This document shows, in pieces, positions 3,353 through 62,292 of a stretch of DNA of 64,000 nucleotides. The first letter of the stretch is position 1; every line of letters begins with the position of its first letter. The notes beneath the pieces are model-generated. The model saw nothing but the letters and a program-made list of their open reading frames with translations. It ran no database searches and was not told where the DNA came from. The position numbers were made by a program, and so were the translations under genes. Origin of the DNA: Polymyxa betae (lineage: Eukaryota; Endomyxa; Phytomyxea; Plasmodiophorida; Plasmodiophoridae); assembly GCA_003693705.1 (NCBI GenBank), contig RBZT01000146.1:1-64000 (forward strand), given 5' to 3'.

Positions 3353-5440
3353 TCAAGGATTTTTTGATGATCTGTATAAAGCCTGATAAGCAGCTGCAGT
3401 AAATAAATATGCTGGTCCTGTCTTAGCCAATGCTGGTAAAATGCCTTTATAAAGACCTTGTAATCCCTCACGCTGAACTATAGTATTGGCAATATGTGAC
3501 ATAGAGCGTAATGGTTGCTTTTGTAATAATCCTATCTGCATACATCGTGATATAGTACGAGCTGGATATGTTGCTATCAAACTTGTCATAAAACTTAATA
3601 ATCCACCTAATTCGGGTCGAAATATTTGTGTCAGATGTGGCTCAGTCAATAAATGCATTGATATAAATGTTGTAGCGCCCTAAAACCAATACAGTAAGTA
3701 GCATGGGATGGCATGCAATATGGGACATACGAGGACATGGGGCAGTACACCCCGGGACAGGCCCGGTATAAGTCCATGGATCCGGACAGAGTTCCATAGG
3801 TAGCGAGAGATGCCGCCGGGCGCCGTACTGGCCGCCATCTGGGTCTGAGCAACATCTAACGGATAGGTAATGAGTGTTGCGAGTCCGGTGGCCATGATTA
3901 GAGAGGAATACTGTCCCTGAGTGAGATGGTCATGATTACAGGTTATGAACTGGATATATGCATAAGGTAATAAGCGAGCTGTTAAGACAGATAATAAGAG
4001 CGGTATTACAGATCATTTGTTATATACACATGACATACCTAGATTAGCTGAATGTCCTTTATATAACTGTTTAGTTATATTATGAGAGTTTCCATTAACC
4101 TGCTGTCTAATCTGTAATGTCTCTATAGGTCCAATTACAGTACGTCCAATAGCAGTAGCAATGAATGCAGGTATTAGATTTGGATATTGACAGTGACGAT
4201 CTTGATTTCGACATGTAAATAATAGACCAATTGATTCAAATCCAGGTAATAATGATACAGCCCAATACATATCAGATGTATGGTCAGCATGTACAGATAC
4301 TTTTCTATGTCCATCATCTATATAATATGCAGTACCATATCGAAATTGGGCCAGTAGCCAATCTAGAATAGGTACAGAATGATTATGATGTGTGGACTTA
4401 GTCTCTGGCCTGATTTTCAACTCAATACATGTTGTGAATAATGGCTGACCATTGCGACATATTTGTACCAACTGCTGATTCATACCCAAATAGAACATTA
4501 AATAACGATCATGAACTGAGACATGATCATTACGAACTCGATCTATATTGATATTGGCCTGTGCTTCCATACTCTCAATATATTCGTTAGCCATTAATTC
4601 CTCATCTCGACTACGACAATATGCAATAAGATTCTGTATGAAGGCCAGATTCAGCTGTTCATGCCCTAATAAGATATCACTCTCATCTAATAATGGAGAG
4701 ATGCCCATCTTCAATATAGTAGATATAACAGCTTGAGCTCGTGATAGATCATCATTGAAATGATTAGGTTTAGATACAGGTAGACTAGATGAAGAAATAC
4801 ATTTCAATAACATGAGATATAAACGACCATCTTGCAGGTCTGTACTGAAATTTGTCATTCGAACTGATGTCGCTGACAATCTATCATTAACCCAGTTAAT
4901 AACCAACTGCTTATGTTCATCTAATGATTGCTTCTGTCTTGGAGATCGGTTTAATCCAGTACGTATTCGTAATTGTCGATCTAGAAGTTGCCATAGTAGA
5001 CCTAGAACTAGACTGACATGATGTCTGGCATCAATTAGATCCTTATCTCCAATATTGACCACAACTAATCCCATATTGACAGCTGCATCAATATATAAAC
5101 GCTGATTGGCCTGCATTTCGAATGTGTTCAATGGCCTTCCTTTCATCTTTGTACTGATAATCTTATGTAATGGAATACTATCAGGTGCAATTGATCTAAT
5201 AAATGCACAGTGAAGAACACCATCACATACTTTATCCAGTAGATCAATATCATCAATGCGAATAGGTAATAAATCAGCAACTAGGTCATCATGTGCTAAC
5301 TCATGGTTCAAATGTCGTGCTAGACCTTTAATCTCAGCAGAGACCAGATCCTGTTTCTGGGGTTTATCAGACTTTGGAGAACCAGAGACTAGTTTCTGTT
5401 CTAACTCGGTAATTAGACCGACATGGTCAGATAACGACAT
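3353..5440 (-). CDS. Tandem calponin-homology (fimbrin-type) / SLC25 mitochondrial carrier fusion protein
   Basis: Exons 5440-4039, 3978-3731 and 3679-3353 give 658 aa in phase (introns 60 and 51 bp). Residues about 60-165 and 178-275 are two CH domains laid out as in a plastin actin-binding domain (CDGVLHCAFI, LVLGLLWQLL; INWVNDRL, NFSTDLQDGRLYL, LNLAFIQNLI). A linker of about 140 residues follows. From about 420 come three carrier repeats with variants of the PX[DE]XX[KR] signature: GPIETLQIRQQ, YPLDVAQTQMA and YPARTISRCMQ. The last repeat also carries LYKGILPA. The CH domains, linker and first carrier half-repeat share one uninterrupted exon, so this is not two genes merged by a guessed splice. 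No targeting peptide is apparent. The transported substrate cannot be inferred. It follows Raptor in tandem with 145 bp between them. Confidence 0.88.
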
Positions 5441-5585: not shown

Positions 5586-8500
5586 CTACATAACAATTAG
5601 CTGTAATATATAATATAATAGATCAGATAACCTATTAGGAATATGCTCATGAAATAGAGGTATGTGCTTATCATTAGATCCAATAGCTAATATTGGATAT
5701 CGTTCATGGAATGTGAGACAGTTGACATTGGCAATACGTTGACCCAAAAATCCATCATAATGTCGTATGGTGTTCAATACTGTACCGCTCAATGTTCCAA
5801 TCTAAGACAAATTAATTTCCTGAATATAACTTCAATATAGATTACAACATTGATGGATTGCTTCACAGATGCGCCTGCATACAGATTTCCACATTCACTG
5901 ATAGCGAATGTTCTCCATCGATCCGATTTCGAGCCAGATTTTGAGCCCTAAACACAATCAATGATTGTGATGGAGATAAACGATAGAACCTGAAATGAAT
6001 GCAAGATTTTGGTTGGTATACGGAGATCTGAGATATGAATAAAACCTCGATCTGAGCATGATACTAATAATGGAGATGATGTATGATGTTGACTATATAC
6101 GCCAATAATATCATCATCATGAACACATAGTGACTGAATCTGTTCATTTGCAATTAGATTCCGAGCAACAGTACCAATATCGGTCAAGAATTACGGCATG
6201 CTGGCCCAGGCGAACATCATTGAGCTGAACGTGACGGTCATCATGTGCCGTAAAGACGATATTATCACCATCCGAGCACAAAGATCGAATCCCGTCTCCG
6301 ATCATCTCACAGAAGCAAAGCTCATGGTTTAGATCCCAAACCTAAGTGGATCAGTATTATGAGCGCTGCAATCTTGTTCATTGGCATACGGTTATGATAC
6401 CTTAATCGGACTGGATCTGGACCCAGATATCAGTCTCAACTGATTGTGTTGCCACTCGGTAAATAGATAATCATGATGAGAAGCATTCATTGTCGGATAC
6501 GCGACAAAGGCCGATCGCATCATGATATCGTCTGGTGCCATACTGGACCAAATTCGAATAGAACCTGAGACCTAAATTAGAGCAAGCAGTAGAGTTTGAA
6601 TTGGATCAATACCATCATTAGATGCTGCTGATATCAGCGAACTGTGCCTTGGATTAATCAACACCAATGAAGTGATCTCTGATTCTGAGAAACAATCAGC
6701 ATAAAGAAAGAAAGCGAGGTAGAGAGAGACCAGACCTGGTTCGTTGCCATTATTAAAGATAGGACCGGTGTGCATAGAGTTGTAATTAAAAAGACAAATA
6801 CGACTGGAATCGGTTGCAAACAGGACAGGTTCGTACGGATGCAGTTTCATGTTGGTCGTCGTATCGAACGGAGATGTCAACAAAGCAATCTGTGTCAGGT
6901 TCAATCAGGAATATAATTCCAGCAGCAGAAATTTGGGGCCCGAACGCAATGGTTCAAATCACCAGCTTTATCGATTTTTAATGCTTCGTTATCGATTCGA
7001 TCATACCGATGTTGACGGGCGAAACGACTGCACTGGGATAGATCACCTGCGATATGAAACTTTTGATGTTTGATGCAATAGCTCGGTAACAATTAGATAC
7101 ATGATAGATACGACATCTCATCATCAGCACCATACAAACGAGATCGTTGATCTGAAGATCGACGAATCAAGTCAGAAGAAAACTATCGAATTAAGCTTAG
7201 CTGTTAATGAGAAAGCATAAAGAAATCAGATTCGGTATACCTGGAATAATGAGGACTGAAACAGATCTGCACTGGGTTCATGATACGACCAGGTCTCATT
7301 TTTCTGTATTTGATATGAGCAGAATCCGGCAAACAATAATATTGAAATGGTGTTACGTCATTTGATCTGCCTGATACAACTTGACATAATCTTAACACAA
7401 ACCTGTCATCAAATAGTGGTTAACAGGAATTCAATTCCTACCTTTGAGCTAATTGTGATACAGCAGAAGCAGGATCCTGACATGCGCATTTCAAAACGTT
7501 CATTAGAAATATTCGTTCCACTGTAGAATGAGTTAAACACACACAGGTCAATAATCGCAAGTGATTGCAAGTTGTACTTTGAAGTTCGTCGTCAGTGTCA
7601 TCTTGTTCCTGGGACTTCATGAAGGCATCCTGGTAACGGGAAGAAGGATCAGTACGGCAGAGAAATATGATCCCAATACCCATTACAAGCTGATCTTGGA
7701 TGAGAGCAGCGATGCAATGTATAAGCTGCACTCGCACTAGAACACAGATATCTTTAACTAATACAGAGAGTTTCTTCACCATTTCAATATTCACAGATAT
7801 CAACTATATTCAGAATAAGCCTAACAGGCAAATCTGATCTCAACCAATCATCAAACATCAACTTGTAACGATTTGTGAAAAATCAAAGCTGAAAATAGGA
7901 AAGAGATGAAATACGAAAGAGCAGTACGTGGCGATCAGAGATAGGATTGGGATCATGTCTTGATAGAAACATAGTAATAGCATAAAGAGCTGAAGCTCGG
8001 GTCTAACACAATATGTAAGTGTCACTTATTGATATAGTTAAGAGAGACATTAAATGGATATTTACCAATGGAAGTTGATCATTTAGTGCAATATCTATCA
8101 CCATATGAACAGCAGTCATACCATAGAGTTCATTAAAGATAAGGCCTAACTGCCTTCCATTACTATTAGATCTCCATACATTGCCCAGACACATCAATGC
8201 CATATGTCGAGCTAATGGACTCTCTGATTCGGATCCCGACAACTTATTCAGTAATAATCCGAACCCATTCGCCGATAGAATTGCCATCTGGCCTAAAATA
8301 ATTCGCTCGTTAATCAGTGCTTGACAACTTGAGACAATCGCATCTGACCCGGATGATAATTATCAGCAATAGCAGCCAGAACGAACAGAGCCAACGATCT
8401 TTGTAATGGTGATGATGATTGTGATGATGCTGCAGATATGAAATATAAATGATATTGATCCTTCACCAGCTCACGTTGACACGACTAATAGAAAAACAGC

Positions 8501-10598
8501 AATCAGCTTCACAATATTTGCCAGAGGTTGATCAGCGAAATTGACAGCGGAACACGAAATATGGAAATAGTTACCTGATCCAGGGCGATAATCTTGGCCC
8601 AAATAAAAACCAAGACGTTCCTTAACTCATGTGTTGGACTCTGTAATAACTTAAGTATGTATGGAAATATGCCAACAGAGAGAGCCTATAACATGATTAG
8701 AAAGAGATATGAATAATACGAAGAGAATATGAGACCTGATTAACAGCCCATGGTCCCATATCAATAAATTTAGCCAATAACTGCAGAGCTCGTAATCGAT
8801 GCGTCTGACTCAATAGTACCTAGAACTCACTATATCATTACATCGCTCAAAGCTGTCCTATGGTCCATTCCAGACCTGCAGTACGACCGGTAATTGCAAT
8901 GGCCGTTTCGATTCGGATCCGAGATCAAGCCAGATTTCGAACGCTGCCAATTGATCGGTAAAGAACGAACTGGACTAAATCGGATATTAAGAGCGTTATT
9001 GCAGCGAGAAGTGGAACCAAATTAGACCTGAAACGTGAATTGTTCGGGATCTTGAAGGTATCGACGTGTTTGTATACAGGCCCAATCAGCAATAAGATCC
9101 CATTGTTGCCACATACAATGTTGTGATGTCTCAGGTAGAGATGGTTGAGATATGGGATGACAGCCGAACTCTTGCATTAAACGACAAGCTAACAGATAAT
9201 TACGGAACTGAGACGCCACTAAAAGATCTTGACGAAATAATCGTTGAAATAAAGCGCAAGGTAATGATGACCAGGCGATGGCTGCTCAAATTACAATCAG
9301 AGCCACAAACGACGTTAAACAGCAGTGTACGAACTATCAGTGACGGCTGTAAAAATCCAGTTTAATTCGCCAATTGGAGTTTTACGATCGTTCGGTTGTC
9401 CAGGAATTTGATCAATCTGCGAATATTTAAGTAAGTAGAATGACTACCAAGAAAGCTTTACAACGCATACTTGCTCAAAAGTGATTTGACGTAAGAACGG
9501 TGGTGTAGTGAAGAGAAACCATCGTAATGCCATCTGTATCTATAGACAGTCGATAATAAATGTGATTGCAAAGTCATAAGCACAGAAGAAAGAAACAAAA
9601 TAACGATGTCAAACGAAGGAAACACAATTATGGAATGACGAATACAGGCGTAGTAAGACATGAAGTGAAGACATCAGCAACACCAAGATCCGGATTCATA
9701 GGGATGTATTCCCCAGCTGAACCTATCATAAACATCTGTAACAGGTAGAAATAATTAATCAGTATGATTACAAGCTGCTAAAATAATGGTGTCATTCTGT
9801 AATGAAGATTCGGTCTCAGCTCGTTGATGTTCATAAGAAGCGAATGCAGCCGGTATCATACCAGCATTATTGCAATCAAATACGTAGATAGTAGGAGATT
9901 GTAACCATGATACAAGTTCGTATACAGAGAGAGGAACGTATTGTGTGTAGTTCTTGTTAAATAGCCAGATTTCACCATTATCAGTAGGACGAGGGACCCC
10001 ATGACCATTATAATGGAACAGAATACGTTCACCTTTCGATGAACGACGTAATGAGATACAGAGCTTCCGTATATCATCGACTGTCTGATCTAAACTGGTT
10101 ACATAACGAGCTCGTGGCTGCCATCTTTCATATTGCTGTTGTAATCTGAGGCCAATCTGCACGAAATTTCAATGAACCAGCATTTGATTTTTAAAGTTAT
10201 AAAAAATATATATATTTGTAGCCGACAAAGTTGGCAGTATCAATGTTCTAAATATAAAATCAAAGGAAAGAAGACAAGTGAATTATGAACCGTTGCAAGA
10301 GCCTTAGTAGCAGGTAATGATTTCGGGTCAATCCAGCATTGAAGTGTAGCAGTTGGATGTGATCGAAATTGATCAGGTGGATCTACTCCTATATTTAAAC
10401 ACATAATCAGCGCTACACTAACAGTTCTCATCTGCATAGCCGTTCTTCATTAATGCCAATCTAAATTTCAGAAAGTCAACGTACGCGCCCTTTCATTCTC
10501 CAATCGATAACCGAGCTCTGATCAAATTCATATAGGCCAGCAGCGAATAGATCATGATTGGCAGTGAAGGCAATGGCTTGACTGCCATCCTGGGTCAT
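5586..10598 (-). CDS. RPTOR: Raptor, regulatory subunit of TOR complex 1
   Basis: Raptor is the substrate-presenting scaffold of TORC1. The start ATG (10598) opens [12 protein letters not shown], then [14 protein letters not shown] and the caspase-like RNC domain, which keeps the His-Cys dyad ([19 protein letters not shown]). Armadillo/HEAT exons follow ([37 protein letters not shown]), then C-terminal WD40 blades ending [16 protein letters not shown] and [13 protein letters not shown]. Resolved exons: 10598-10485, 10431-10291, 10156-9772, 9722-9646, 9539-9471, 9416-9335, 9281-9028, 8974-8876, 8819-8736, 8685-8575, 8484-8349, 8292-8066, 8002-7928, 7803-7442, then 6889-6736, 6684-6613, 6564-6401, 6341-6195, 6139-5990, 5947-5846, 5801-5586. 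Phases agree on both sides. The poorly conserved linker at 6890-7400 contains exons I could not place. 10599-11120 is a divergent intergenic region facing the next gene. Confidence 0.93.
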
Positions 10599-24443: not shown

Positions 24444-25213
24444 TCATGACTGCTTCTTATGTACATATTGATACTTTTCGATATGTTCGCTTCTTCGATT
24501 CGCCTTTATATTTCTCGCCAACATAAAGGTACTCTGACTGTCTTGTAAGACAGGAATCGGACTTTTAATCTCTTGTCCAAACTCCGCAGGTAGGTCTCGT
24601 ATCCAGGCAATCTCCTTCGTCACCTCACATAGTGAAATGTACTCTGCCTCGGTCGTCGAGAGTGCTAGGCATTGCTGCAGGCGACTAGCCCAGCTGATGA
24701 CAAATTGAAGTAATGTTACCGGAGGTTGGACGCCGCTCCGATTTATCTCTGGCATAGTCAGAATCAGCATATGATTGAAGCCCTCCATTTCCACGCTGGT
24801 AACGTATTCGGTATTCCGGCATCGAGGGTCGATTTCAAGTAACGTAAAATGTTTTACCACGCCAAACGTGTTGTGGTCCGGGGTTGCTGCAGAATTTCGA
24901 TAATAATCCGACTGAATTGTTAGGACGGCGGTAGGAAGTTGCGAGTTTATTCTCAAGGGACGGCGGGAGCAGGGTAGAGAAGGAGTTGGCAGGAATGGAC
25001 AAGCACAGGTTTCAGGATCAGACGCCGTACTCGCTGCGCATTGCGCGGGTGGTTGCGTCTGAGGGTTACGCTGGGACCGACTGGTGACTGTACTGTTGTG
25101 GACGCATAGGCGGGCCTAACATGAAAAGCAAGGTCCGGGGGCGTGTTCCGAGCATAAGGCATATCAGGCTCCCGATAGCTTGAGCGTAGGGAAAATTCTC
25201 CGGACTCCCTCAT
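24444..25213 (-). pseudogene. Ty1/Copia polyprotein fragment (RNase H end)
   Basis: The minus strand encodes the Copia RNase H region: ISWASRLQQCLALSTTEAEY, SLCEVTKEIAWIRDL, PIPVLQDSQSTFMLA and RRSEHIEKYQYVH. This is a near-consensus C-terminus of a Copia Pol. Upstream coding (24957-25213) is frameshifted relative to it, and the RT core is missing. At 25430-25700 the minus strand has Gag-like scraps (VELRVKRKLWWQ) in broken frames. 25214-26312 otherwise shows no gene. Confidence 0.75.
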
Positions 25214-39952: not shown

Positions 39953-40450
39953 CGGCGTTGATTTGGTTTTGTGAATTCGAGCTGGTGAGATACCACGACG
40001 GTTTTTTGGAATGAGAATTGGCGATGGAAACTCTTTCGATTTGGCCTGGAAACTCTCGGAAGTTCGGAAGCAATTCAGACGTCATGGTACGCGTGAGTCA
40101 TTGCTGCTTCTAATCATTTTTGCTACATAACAGATTGACTTCCTTCGTCTGGTTCCGGTTCCGTCTTCGGTGCCTGCGAAACCCTTCGACTTTATGCTTG
40201 AATTCTGTAGCAAGGAACGTCAACGACGTGGTCGCTTCATGAACCAGCATCATCTTCTCACGTTTTGATCACGATCTCGAACATTATTCTGGATTAGACA
40301 TGATATACAAAATAGCCTCTCTACTGTAGTTATCGGTATTCTAGATTGTTTCTATCCTCTTTTTAAGATGGGCCAGTCCGACCCAGACAGCCATTCTGCA
40401 ATCACCTCCCAAACCGTTTCTACAAATCATTCACCAATCGATAAGCCAGC

Positions 40451-41253
40451 ATGAACATGAAATGTATCATTGCGATCTTTGCTGTAATTGGATCTGTGGC
40501 CTCAGCTGAGATGATTACTGGACGTGTTACCCCAGCTAACAATATCTGGAGAATGAATTATACAGTTGACACAACTGCATCCATGTTTCATGCAACAGTT
40601 AGTTGCCGAACAAAAGGATGGATCGGTATGGGACTATCATATGATGGTCCATCAGGTCATGCTAATACCGACTCAATACTCGCCTTCCATTCAAATGGCA
40701 CACATCATATCCATGATCAGTTCTCCAACACTGGTTCCAAACCCCAGCTGGATACCTCGCTAGGCGGAAAGAATGATCTCACCCTTACAGGATGGAGTCA
40801 AGTTGGCAATGTCTCCTCAGTAACCTACATGCGTCCATTAAACACCAATGATGGATCTCGTGATGTTGTTATTGAGAACAAACCTGTGTATGTTAGTTGG
40901 GCATGTGGTAATAGCGTTCCAGTAATGAACTCAGATGGAACTGTCACCTATGGTATCCATCCAAATGGACAATTTGGTGCGCTTCAAGTCAATGTAAGTA
41001 TTAATTGTATGCAATTATCATATCACATTACTTACATATAATATAGCTATGGGATAACCAGAACCCATCATCATCATCACCTTCTCAATCAGGTAATACT
41101 GGCTCTGGTGGGAATACTGGCTCTGGTGGGAATACTGGTGGTTCATCTGGTTCATCTGGTCCTACACCTACCACCAAAAGTTCTGCTCTATCAATATCAT
41201 CCTGGTTTCCATTTGCTACAGCTGCGATTCTGGCTATTGCTGCCTTCTTCTAA
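40451..41253 (+). CDS. DOMON-domain GPI-type surface protein
   Basis: Exons 40451-40993 and 41047-41253 (53-bp intron) give 249 aa. After a signal peptide (CIIAIFAVIGSVASA) comes one DOMON domain: KGWIGMGLSYDGPSGHANTD, then THHIHDQFSNTG, then MRPLNTNDG and the VSWACG strand. DOMON domains bind haem or sugars and often take part in electron transfer at the cell surface. A Gly/Ser repeat linker (GNTGSGGNTG) and a hydrophobic tail ending AAILAIAAFF indicate a GPI anchor. Cytochrome b561 helices are absent, so it is not a full b561 fusion. Confidence 0.88.
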
Positions 41254-59659: not shown

Positions 59660-62292
59660 TTATTTCTTCAAGGGGTTCAGGCTGGCAGCCATAATAGCAG
59701 CGACGAATGTCATAATCTGCAAAGTATAAATTTTTCCGGTGCCAATACGAAGTAAGAAACGTACCATCTTGTCTTTAATTTCAACGATGTCTTCAGGCAA
59801 AAGGAAGATGATACTTCCGATCTTACGAGCAACAGATATGGCATATCGAGCATTGAGAAGCTGATCGTCTTTCGTCTGCGCAGGAGTAACAAGCTATCAA
59901 AACAACTTAGTAAAAAGAAGACATTAGTGACCTCGGGTCTCACCTCCCAGTTGATGATGCGGTTCTCAACAGCATACAACAGATCGAAAAAGAACTCGGA
60001 CGTTTTTAGGGACGGGTCCTTGAATGATTGCATGCGAGTTGACCTAGCAGCATTGGCAACCTGAATGATCATTTGTTTGAGTAAACGCAACGCGGATTGT
60101 AATGATCAAACCTTATCATTGGCCCATTGAATGATCTTCTCGTCGGACATGACAACGCCGCCTCCAAGTTGCGTTAAGAATTTAATGATATGGCGACGCA
60201 TCAGTTGCCTGATCATGAGCTGTCTTAGAGCAAATTCGTACATAAAAAAAGGGGACACATACCAGGTGAGGGCCAGAACAAGTTTCCTGTTTCCATCAAC
60301 GATATCCGTTCCGCCAATACCGACCAAGCTGAATTTCAATTGCTTCCCAAGCACAATTACATAGTTCGCATTGCTGATCCGCTTAAACCTTGGATGCAAT
60401 ATGAGCATACGCTTATTCTCTGGCAGCATAGCACACTCACTTGTTACTTGGCTTTTTCTCAACCTTGCTCCAATCCACAATTCCGGGTTCAATGTGGTCA
60501 ATCACTAAGACAGAGAATGGATATGAATGGATTATAATCGTTGAACAGCTACCTTTAAGAAGGACGAGACCATCCTTGCAATCCTCGTAAAGAGCGTTTA
60601 CGTAGACTTCGTGCAGGCCGAGAGTATTAATCCACATTCGGAAAGCTATAGTTATTTTCAGTGAAAACAGAGCAGAAAATGACACAGAATCAAACCTCTT
60701 TCTTCTCGGCTGTCACCAAAGTCGTCATCCATCATTCCTGCTAACTCCATTGCCTGCAAATGTGCTTTAGAAACCGCGACTTAAGTTCGAACAACAACAA
60801 GACCTCTTCCTCAGTCAGAGGGTCCAATCCTGGGCAAGTGTTGAAAATTGAGGCAGTAAACGCCAAGTTTAATCGAGCATTGCCCTTAACAATGTCTCGA
60901 GCCTATGTCATATGTTAGTTCGACAATTATCCAGAACATTATGGTAATATGAGTTGAGTGGCACAGAACCTGAATGAAAGCATGAATGTCAAGCTTCTCT
61001 GCATTGCGAAGGACTCGGTCGGCTCTCTTGGTTAGATCCTTTTCTTCCAGCGCCGATTTGTCACAGCGTTGAGGTGCGATTTGATTGAGCAAGACTGTGT
61101 ACGCTTCAGAGTCCTAGACAATGTTATAAGACATGCAACAAATGTTATGGAACAATATCAAACCTTCACATCAGTAGCGAAGTTCGTGATGCGTTTAGAA
61201 AAGCCAGCGTTTTTTAGATGGTAGTTGAACCAACGAATCAAAAGTTGATCGGGAGGAAGTTTCAACAAATCAGCAAGCTCTTCGCCCTCTTCAAGCAGAC
61301 GAACCAGCTCTGGATGGTTCTTCAGGTTGATCGTGTTCAAGAGTTGCAATTTGACTAAATGCGCTTCAGCTATCAACCGCTAGCGATATCAGAATCAGCG
61401 TTACCGAGCTGCCACACCAGACCAAGAACAAGATGCGGGTGCTTATCACCGCTAGCAAGCTCACTGGCTCCCAAGTTCACTGTCTGGATACCAATAGCTT
61501 TAGCTGAAGCAATCACCAAGTTAAGGTTCTCATTGATCTGTTCATAGACTGCTCAGGTACAGCTCTTCAAAGATGACCCATGATCTAACCTGGAACAGAG
61601 AAAGAGGTTTGTTGTTCTTTTGAAGGTTCAGAGCACGAACATCAATGGTGTCTTTGACAGCTTTGTTAATGAATTTTGAAAGAAGAACACCATCGTTGAC
61701 TTTCTTCGCCAGCTCCTGGCCGTTAACATCGATGGGCAACAGATATCTGTTTAAAGTTTAGAATCATCGATCCGTTTGAGATCCGTCGTACTTGAGATCT
61801 GAGTCCTCTCCAAGAACCTGGTTGATATGTAAAGCGAAAGCAGTCATTTCTTCTTGTGAGAACGAGTGAACACCACCTGCATGGCCTTGAACTTGAATCA
61901 GCTCTTTCTGCTTCTCATAAACCTAATGAAATTTCAGTTTCAAGCAGATATGAGCGAACTCCATTTGATCAACCTTGGCAAAGCCAGCAGCACCAGCTGT
62001 TTTCCCTGTCCGAATCGAAGAAATGATAGCCAGAAACTCATTGAATTCGATAGTTCCAGATCTATCAGTATCAACCTAGATCCAGCATTGGATTAGAGCT
62101 TCGTCAACGTTTAAGTAAAAGCCCAACTTCGGAGATCAATGTCTTCAGCTGAGAAGCATCCTTGAACTCGTTGAGATTTCGGAGGACAGTCTCAAGCTCA
62201 AGAACGTCAATAGAGCCGTTGCCGTTTGTGTCGAATGACGCAAACTCATGGTGGAATTGTTGTAGCTCTGCAGGGGAGAAGGTGAGAGCCAT
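59660..62292 (-). CDS. PLS: Plastin/fimbrin, EF-hand and four CH domains
   Basis: Start ATG at 62292 ([13 protein letters not shown]), stop at 59660. Two EF-hands come first ([12 protein letters not shown] and [12 protein letters not shown], all calcium positions filled), then two actin-binding domains of two CH domains each: [38 protein letters not shown] with [46 protein letters not shown] with LVLALTW, and a final CH with VARKIGS. It bundles actin filaments, with calcium weakening the bundles. At least eight short introns. This is a normal member of the family and a paralogue for the CH-carrier fusion. Confidence 0.93.

Follow-up and report, generated by a model that had tools for sequence, protein, structure and literature searches.

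A predicted gene of Polymyxa betae joins a fimbrin-type calponin-homology pair to an SLC25 carrier fold lacking complete gate motifs

Outside transport, the SLC25 carrier fold is known from only a few outer-membrane proteins, of which humans have three (PMC12410006). SLC25A46 resides in the outer mitochondrial membrane, does not conserve the carrier motif and is regarded as probably not transporting in the conventional way (PMC10052876), and its N-terminus is unusually long (PMC5009808). Domains placed N-terminally on carriers are known from the EF-hand carriers (PMC6283063), and the fusion reported below is therefore not of a wholly new kind. The window analyzed here is a stretch of 64,000 nucleotides of Polymyxa betae DNA (contig RBZT01000146.1, C330:1-64000; genome searched, 24.43 Mb in 541 contigs). 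It holds a predicted gene on the minus strand, flanked by a Raptor gene and DDE transposase pieces, that encodes two calponin-homology (CH) domains of fimbrin type followed by an SLC25 carrier-fold domain. A preliminary description of this DNA knew of no described CH-SLC25 fusion, in line with which none was among the matches listed in the open-licence part of PMC (titles, term counts and abstract starts).

Joining exons 5440-4039, 3978-3731 and 3679-3353 yields a protein of 658 residues that is free of stops until its terminal one, whereas the frame read without splicing meets a stop 8 residues past exon 1. Both introns are of the GT-AG type. The exon and intron coordinates of the preliminary description were exact, and its proposal that in-phase introns complete carrier repeats 2 and 3 holds as well, both splices restoring carrier sequence. 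The features of the gene are as follows.

4039..5440, minus strand: exon 1 (residues 1-467), running from the N-terminal tail through CH1, CH2 and the linker to the middle of carrier repeat 1; a single open frame of 467 codons plus 1 nt
4961..5335, minus strand: CH1, fimbrin type (about residues 36-160), from phmmer matches to fimbrins and the modelled fold
4613..4918, minus strand: CH2 (residues 175-276), from Pfam CH at 55.2 bits, a CH match in the joined protein as well, and the modelled fold
4184..4612, minus strand: linker (residues 277-419), without a Pfam match or a convincing PDB sequence match; residues of about 361-406 are similar to P0001, a relative introduced below
4039..4183, minus strand: residues 420-467, with helix 1 of the first carrier repeat and its motif PIETLQ
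3979..4038, minus strand: intron 1, 60 nt, phase 1, GTATGT...AACAG; splicing restores the SLC25-like stretch YKGHSANLARLLPYAYIQF
3731..3978, minus strand: exon 2, which finishes repeat 1 and covers most of repeat 2, with the motif PLDVAQ
3680..3730, minus strand: intron 2, 51 nt, phase 0, GTATGT...TTTAG
3353..3679, minus strand: exon 3, which finishes repeat 2 and contains repeat 3, with the motif PARTIS, and the stop; Mito_carr 44.4 bits by itself

At the DNA level, the fusion of CH and carrier parts is well supported. CH2, the linker and carrier helix 1 all lie within one stop-free exon, and the 143 codons of the linker (residues 277-419) are open in the gene's frame as against none of 20,000 versions with shuffled bases. 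Moreover, only in this frame does the linker use codons like the CH part: the cosine is 0.85 here and drops to 0.60 and 0.51 in the two remaining frames.

By sequence and in a structural model, residues of about 30-281 make up a tandem CH module like the first actin-binding domain (ABD1) of fimbrins. Pfam (cut-offs of 26 bits for CH and 22.3 bits for Mito_carr) gave 86.1 bits for CH in two stretches of the joined protein, and the predicted structure holds the whole tandem CH fold, with the CH1-CH2 arrangement of fimbrin/plastin ABD1 and an actin cross-linker as its nearest structural match. The fimbrin-type CH pair of the preliminary description was thus borne out by Pfam, by phmmer matches to fimbrins and by the modelled fold. 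The protein has two CH stretches where a fimbrin has four; it also shows no EF-hand in Pfam at E 1, which sets it apart from fimbrins and EF-hand carriers alike. The true fimbrin of this organism is a separate, canonical gene at 59660-62292 on the same (minus) strand, 54 kb from the CH-carrier gene, with EF-hands, four CH domains and many introns. Judged by eye, seven of the gaps between its exon pieces are GT-AG introns about 35-70 nt long, small like those of the CH-carrier gene. Over the CH region, the joined protein is 44% identical to P0001 (230 columns), 34% to the organism's own fimbrin (245 columns) and 28-31% to 11 other rows of the alignment.

Residues 420-658 form, by profile, a carrier-fold domain with three repeats: Mito_carr scored 78.7 bits in three stretches of the joined protein and 86.4 bits when the carrier part was scanned by itself. 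The profile check called for by the preliminary description therefore returned both families above their cut-offs, including a carrier match past about residue 420. The domain is divergent, its best PDB match reaching 37.1 bits, and residues 345-658 found no protein at E 10 among 3054 candidates, a set limited to 0.55-1.75 times the length of the full protein, so that most ordinary carriers fell outside it. In carriers, the matrix gate depends on salt bridges that link acidic to basic residues of the PX[DE]XX[KR] motifs (PMC12410006). In an alignment to carrier repeats from the same genome, the three signatures announced earlier were located as PIETLQ, PLDVAQ and PARTIS, yet calling them recognisable overstated the case, as each is short of one or both charged residues: the acidic residue is present in repeats 1 and 2, the basic one in none, and the motif is complete in 0/3 repeats. 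The same motif was found in 14 of 16 control repeats from other carriers of this genome, hand-picked from 89 hits as reaching the motif position in fetched loci (7/9 loci); one of the two misses reads PIWLIK and the other has stops ahead of its motif. These other carriers lie at loci L015-L020 and L023-L025, among which we take L023 to carry an ADP/ATP-carrier-like gene and L015 a mitoferrin-like gene. In the cytoplasmic-gate motif [FY][DE]XX[KR], the acidic position is occupied by N, P and Q and is thus missing from 3/3 repeats, while the basic position of repeat 3 hinges on a one-residue gap. The matrix loop helix is mostly missing from repeat 1. Against a total decay of the gate, the longer motif seems to retain two of its glutamine braces (PIETLQIRQQ and PARTISRCMQ). 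Because the matrix-gate motif is nowhere complete and the cytoplasmic acidic residue is absent throughout, a transporter is disfavoured, and the carrier part looks, from its sequence, more like a carrier-derived membrane anchor. The earlier suggestion of a working transporter that tethers actin found no support, the gate motifs being lost in both networks.

A first protein search scored 8000 candidates and returned 23 proteins, 22 of which cover 20-39% of the query, consistent with the CH pair alone; P0001 (465 aa, from Logan) covers 61%. A profile of the query and P0001 retrieved 29 proteins at E 0.01 among 7052 candidates with no further P0001-like relative, the coverage of exon 1 being 64% for P0003 and at most 55% for all others except P0001. 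No further relatives were found in viral contigs (queries P0001 and A1) or genome contigs (query A1). P0001 and the query group together with support of 100/99 in the 16- and 14-row trees, both flagged for long branches meeting near the query, and of 100/100 in a 12-row tree with two long branches left out; row trimming was loose in these trees, and the branch of P0001 is itself long and its composition deviates. A two-residue insertion that the query and P0001 share in CH1 was rejected as a sign of common descent, an insertion at this place being present also in the organism's own fimbrin and in several further rows. Beyond the CH pair, the linker piece of about residues 361-406 matches P0001 with a score of 58, which, depending on the slice, none or a single one of 1000 shuffles attained. 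Residues 283-345 showed no similarity to P0001 (357/1000 shuffles), nor did the last part when left free to slide (417/1000). The linker had no Pfam match at E 10, its two PDB matches (E 0.64 and 0.83) were taken as chance, and it is poorly modelled, with blocks below a predicted local distance difference test (pLDDT) score of 35 from residue 331 onward. An extra membrane helix at 392-410 of the linker is doubtful since its counterpart in P0001 looks hydrophilic.

As to where such a protein might sit, most disease variants of SLC25A46 map to loops that are said to face the intermembrane space, with T142I lying between helices 1 and 2 (PMC10052876, PMC5009808), from which we infer that both ends of that protein are cytosolic. 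Both ends of the peroxisomal SLC25A17, on the other hand, point toward the lumen (PMC10822792). A peroxisomal location with cytosolic CH domains was therefore set aside, as it would hide the CH pair in the lumen; of the locations favoured by the topology argument of the preliminary description, the outer mitochondrial membrane fits, being that of SLC25A46-type proteins, and the peroxisome does not. Given the gate loss, the likeness to SLC25A46 and the SLC25A17 topology, the best-supported mechanism would be a cytosol-facing actin-binding module on a transport-dead outer-membrane carrier fold. Like SLC25A46/Ugo1, the carrier part would span the outer mitochondrial membrane, both of its ends being cytosolic, and would serve as an anchor without transport, while the CH pair may tie actin filaments to the mitochondrion for its positioning, division or inheritance. 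We give about an even chance to the protein being such a membrane-anchored actin-binding protein, one that keeps actin at the cytosolic face of the outer mitochondrial membrane.

Several observations weigh against this mechanism or against its conservation. The resemblance of P0001 ends where the carrier starts (residue 412 of 465), and its last 53 residues look unrelated; we read them as the putative, unproved start of an intron. Anchored behind the linker piece, LIPAFIATAIG of carrier helix 1 aligns with LIPSLASGLLG of P0001 (402-412), a match that is suggestive only, as 622 and 500 of 20,000 shuffles reach the score. With the likeness stopping at the carrier start and the helix 1 match weak, conservation of the complete fusion is not demonstrated. 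The CH pair and the linker piece recur in P0001, yet the search for the architecture in other sequences, as the preliminary description had proposed, yielded no second complete fusion in three protein searches, and Mito_carr was not listed for any of the 30 proteins from the first search and the profile search. The fimbrin likeness of the model is not independent of the sequence match because most of the 20 alignment rows from which it was built are fimbrins, and a model built from two rows was of no use (mean pLDDT 33). Hydropathy peaks exceed 1.0 for only four of the six carrier helices (1, 3, 4 and 5).

Competing explanations bear either on the gene itself or on its function. Two neighbouring genes, or an assembly chimera, might have been read as one; in favour of this, the codon make-up of exon 2 deviates from that of the other exons, G+C at third codon positions being 46/82 (0.56) in exon 2 and 135/575 (0.23) in exons 1 and 3 (Fisher 8e-9). 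A single exon without a stop nonetheless spans CH2, the linker and helix 1, both splices restore the carrier, the linker piece adjoining the carrier is found again behind the CH pair of P0001, and a second match for the exon 2 stretch was looked for in the genome without success, making this reading very unlikely. That the gene is a functionless, decaying chimera, as its long branch and vanished gate motifs might suggest, has only the slightest probability when set against a frame open over its full length, plausible splice sites and the retention of the CH pair and linker piece in a distant organism.

Alternatively, the CH pair may have lost actin binding and dock another partner on the organelle surface, with the carrier part as anchor. 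Its long branch and identity of 28-34% with fimbrins would allow for this, and the conservation shared with P0001 is by eye highest in CH1, whatever its ligand; the model, however, retains the entire tandem fold, whose nearest match is an actin cross-linker, and there is no sign of a different partner, so that we hold this docking role to be unlikely. SLC25 ends normally face the intermembrane space, a generality that would favour an inner-membrane carrier with the CH pair acting in that space as a regulatory domain, whereas actin is mainly cytosolic, which argues against it. Such an arrangement, in the manner of the EF-hand carriers (ATP-Mg/Pi and aspartate/glutamate), has a precedent in the fusion of an N-terminal domain to a carrier (PMC6283063), yet the charged gate motifs are gone, and in the inner membrane leakage through a gate would do harm (PMC12410006); we consider it decidedly unlikely.

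Elsewhere in the window, the gene for Raptor, a TORC1 subunit, lies directly upstream at 5590-10168 on the minus strand (N-domain PF14538 at 9755-10168, 5.5e-49; gene end approximate), and downstream, at 1870-2959 on the plus strand, are DDE transposase pieces that are presumably of Harbinger type (PF13359, 98 bits; HTH_Tnp_4 just below cut-off). An open frame at 24444-25115 (minus strand) resembles, on visual inspection, the end of a copia-type polyprotein and has no Pfam match at 0.01, and a DOMON domain protein at 40445-41041 (plus strand; PF03351, 1e-19) is by eye secreted-looking. Genes with introns, those for Raptor and fimbrin among them, mark the DNA as eukaryotic, and an SSU motif was absent when up to one mismatch was allowed. 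Ubiquitin repeats of Cercozoa are known for an extra junction residue; in the C318 array of this genome the repeats are spaced 228 nt (76 codons), with no extra junction residue there.

Somewhat short of even, in our estimate, is the broader possibility of an undescribed protist family in which a transport-dead SLC25 fold would anchor a fimbrin-type module in the outer mitochondrial membrane as a one-protein mitochondrion-actin tether, with the P0001 organism as its second member. Single-protein links between mitochondria and actin are, to our knowledge, few. Were the proposal correct, the SLC25 fold would have been recruited as an actin anchor, and mitochondrial placement and inheritance in protists would gain a testable handle; the fusion offers a clean test of the role of the carrier fold after gate loss. 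Among known systems, fimbrin/plastin ABD1 resembles the CH-carrier protein in its tandem CH fold and domain order and provides the best sequence and structure matches, from which the protein differs in lacking EF-hands and CH3-CH4 and in having a carrier domain attached. MTCH1 and MTCH2 are, as far as we know, without CH domains. They are likened to it by description, being SLC25 members of the outer membrane that have diverged (PMC12410006). The EF-hand carriers share an extra N-terminal domain and a linker before the SLC25 domain (PMC6283063), in place of whose EF-hands the present protein has CH domains and whose gate motifs it has lost. SLC25A46/Ugo1, compared by published description, likewise combine a carrier fold, a lost PX[DE]XX[KR] motif and a long N-terminal extension, which amounts to about 100 residues in those proteins and to a 419-residue CH-CH-linker in the CH-carrier protein.
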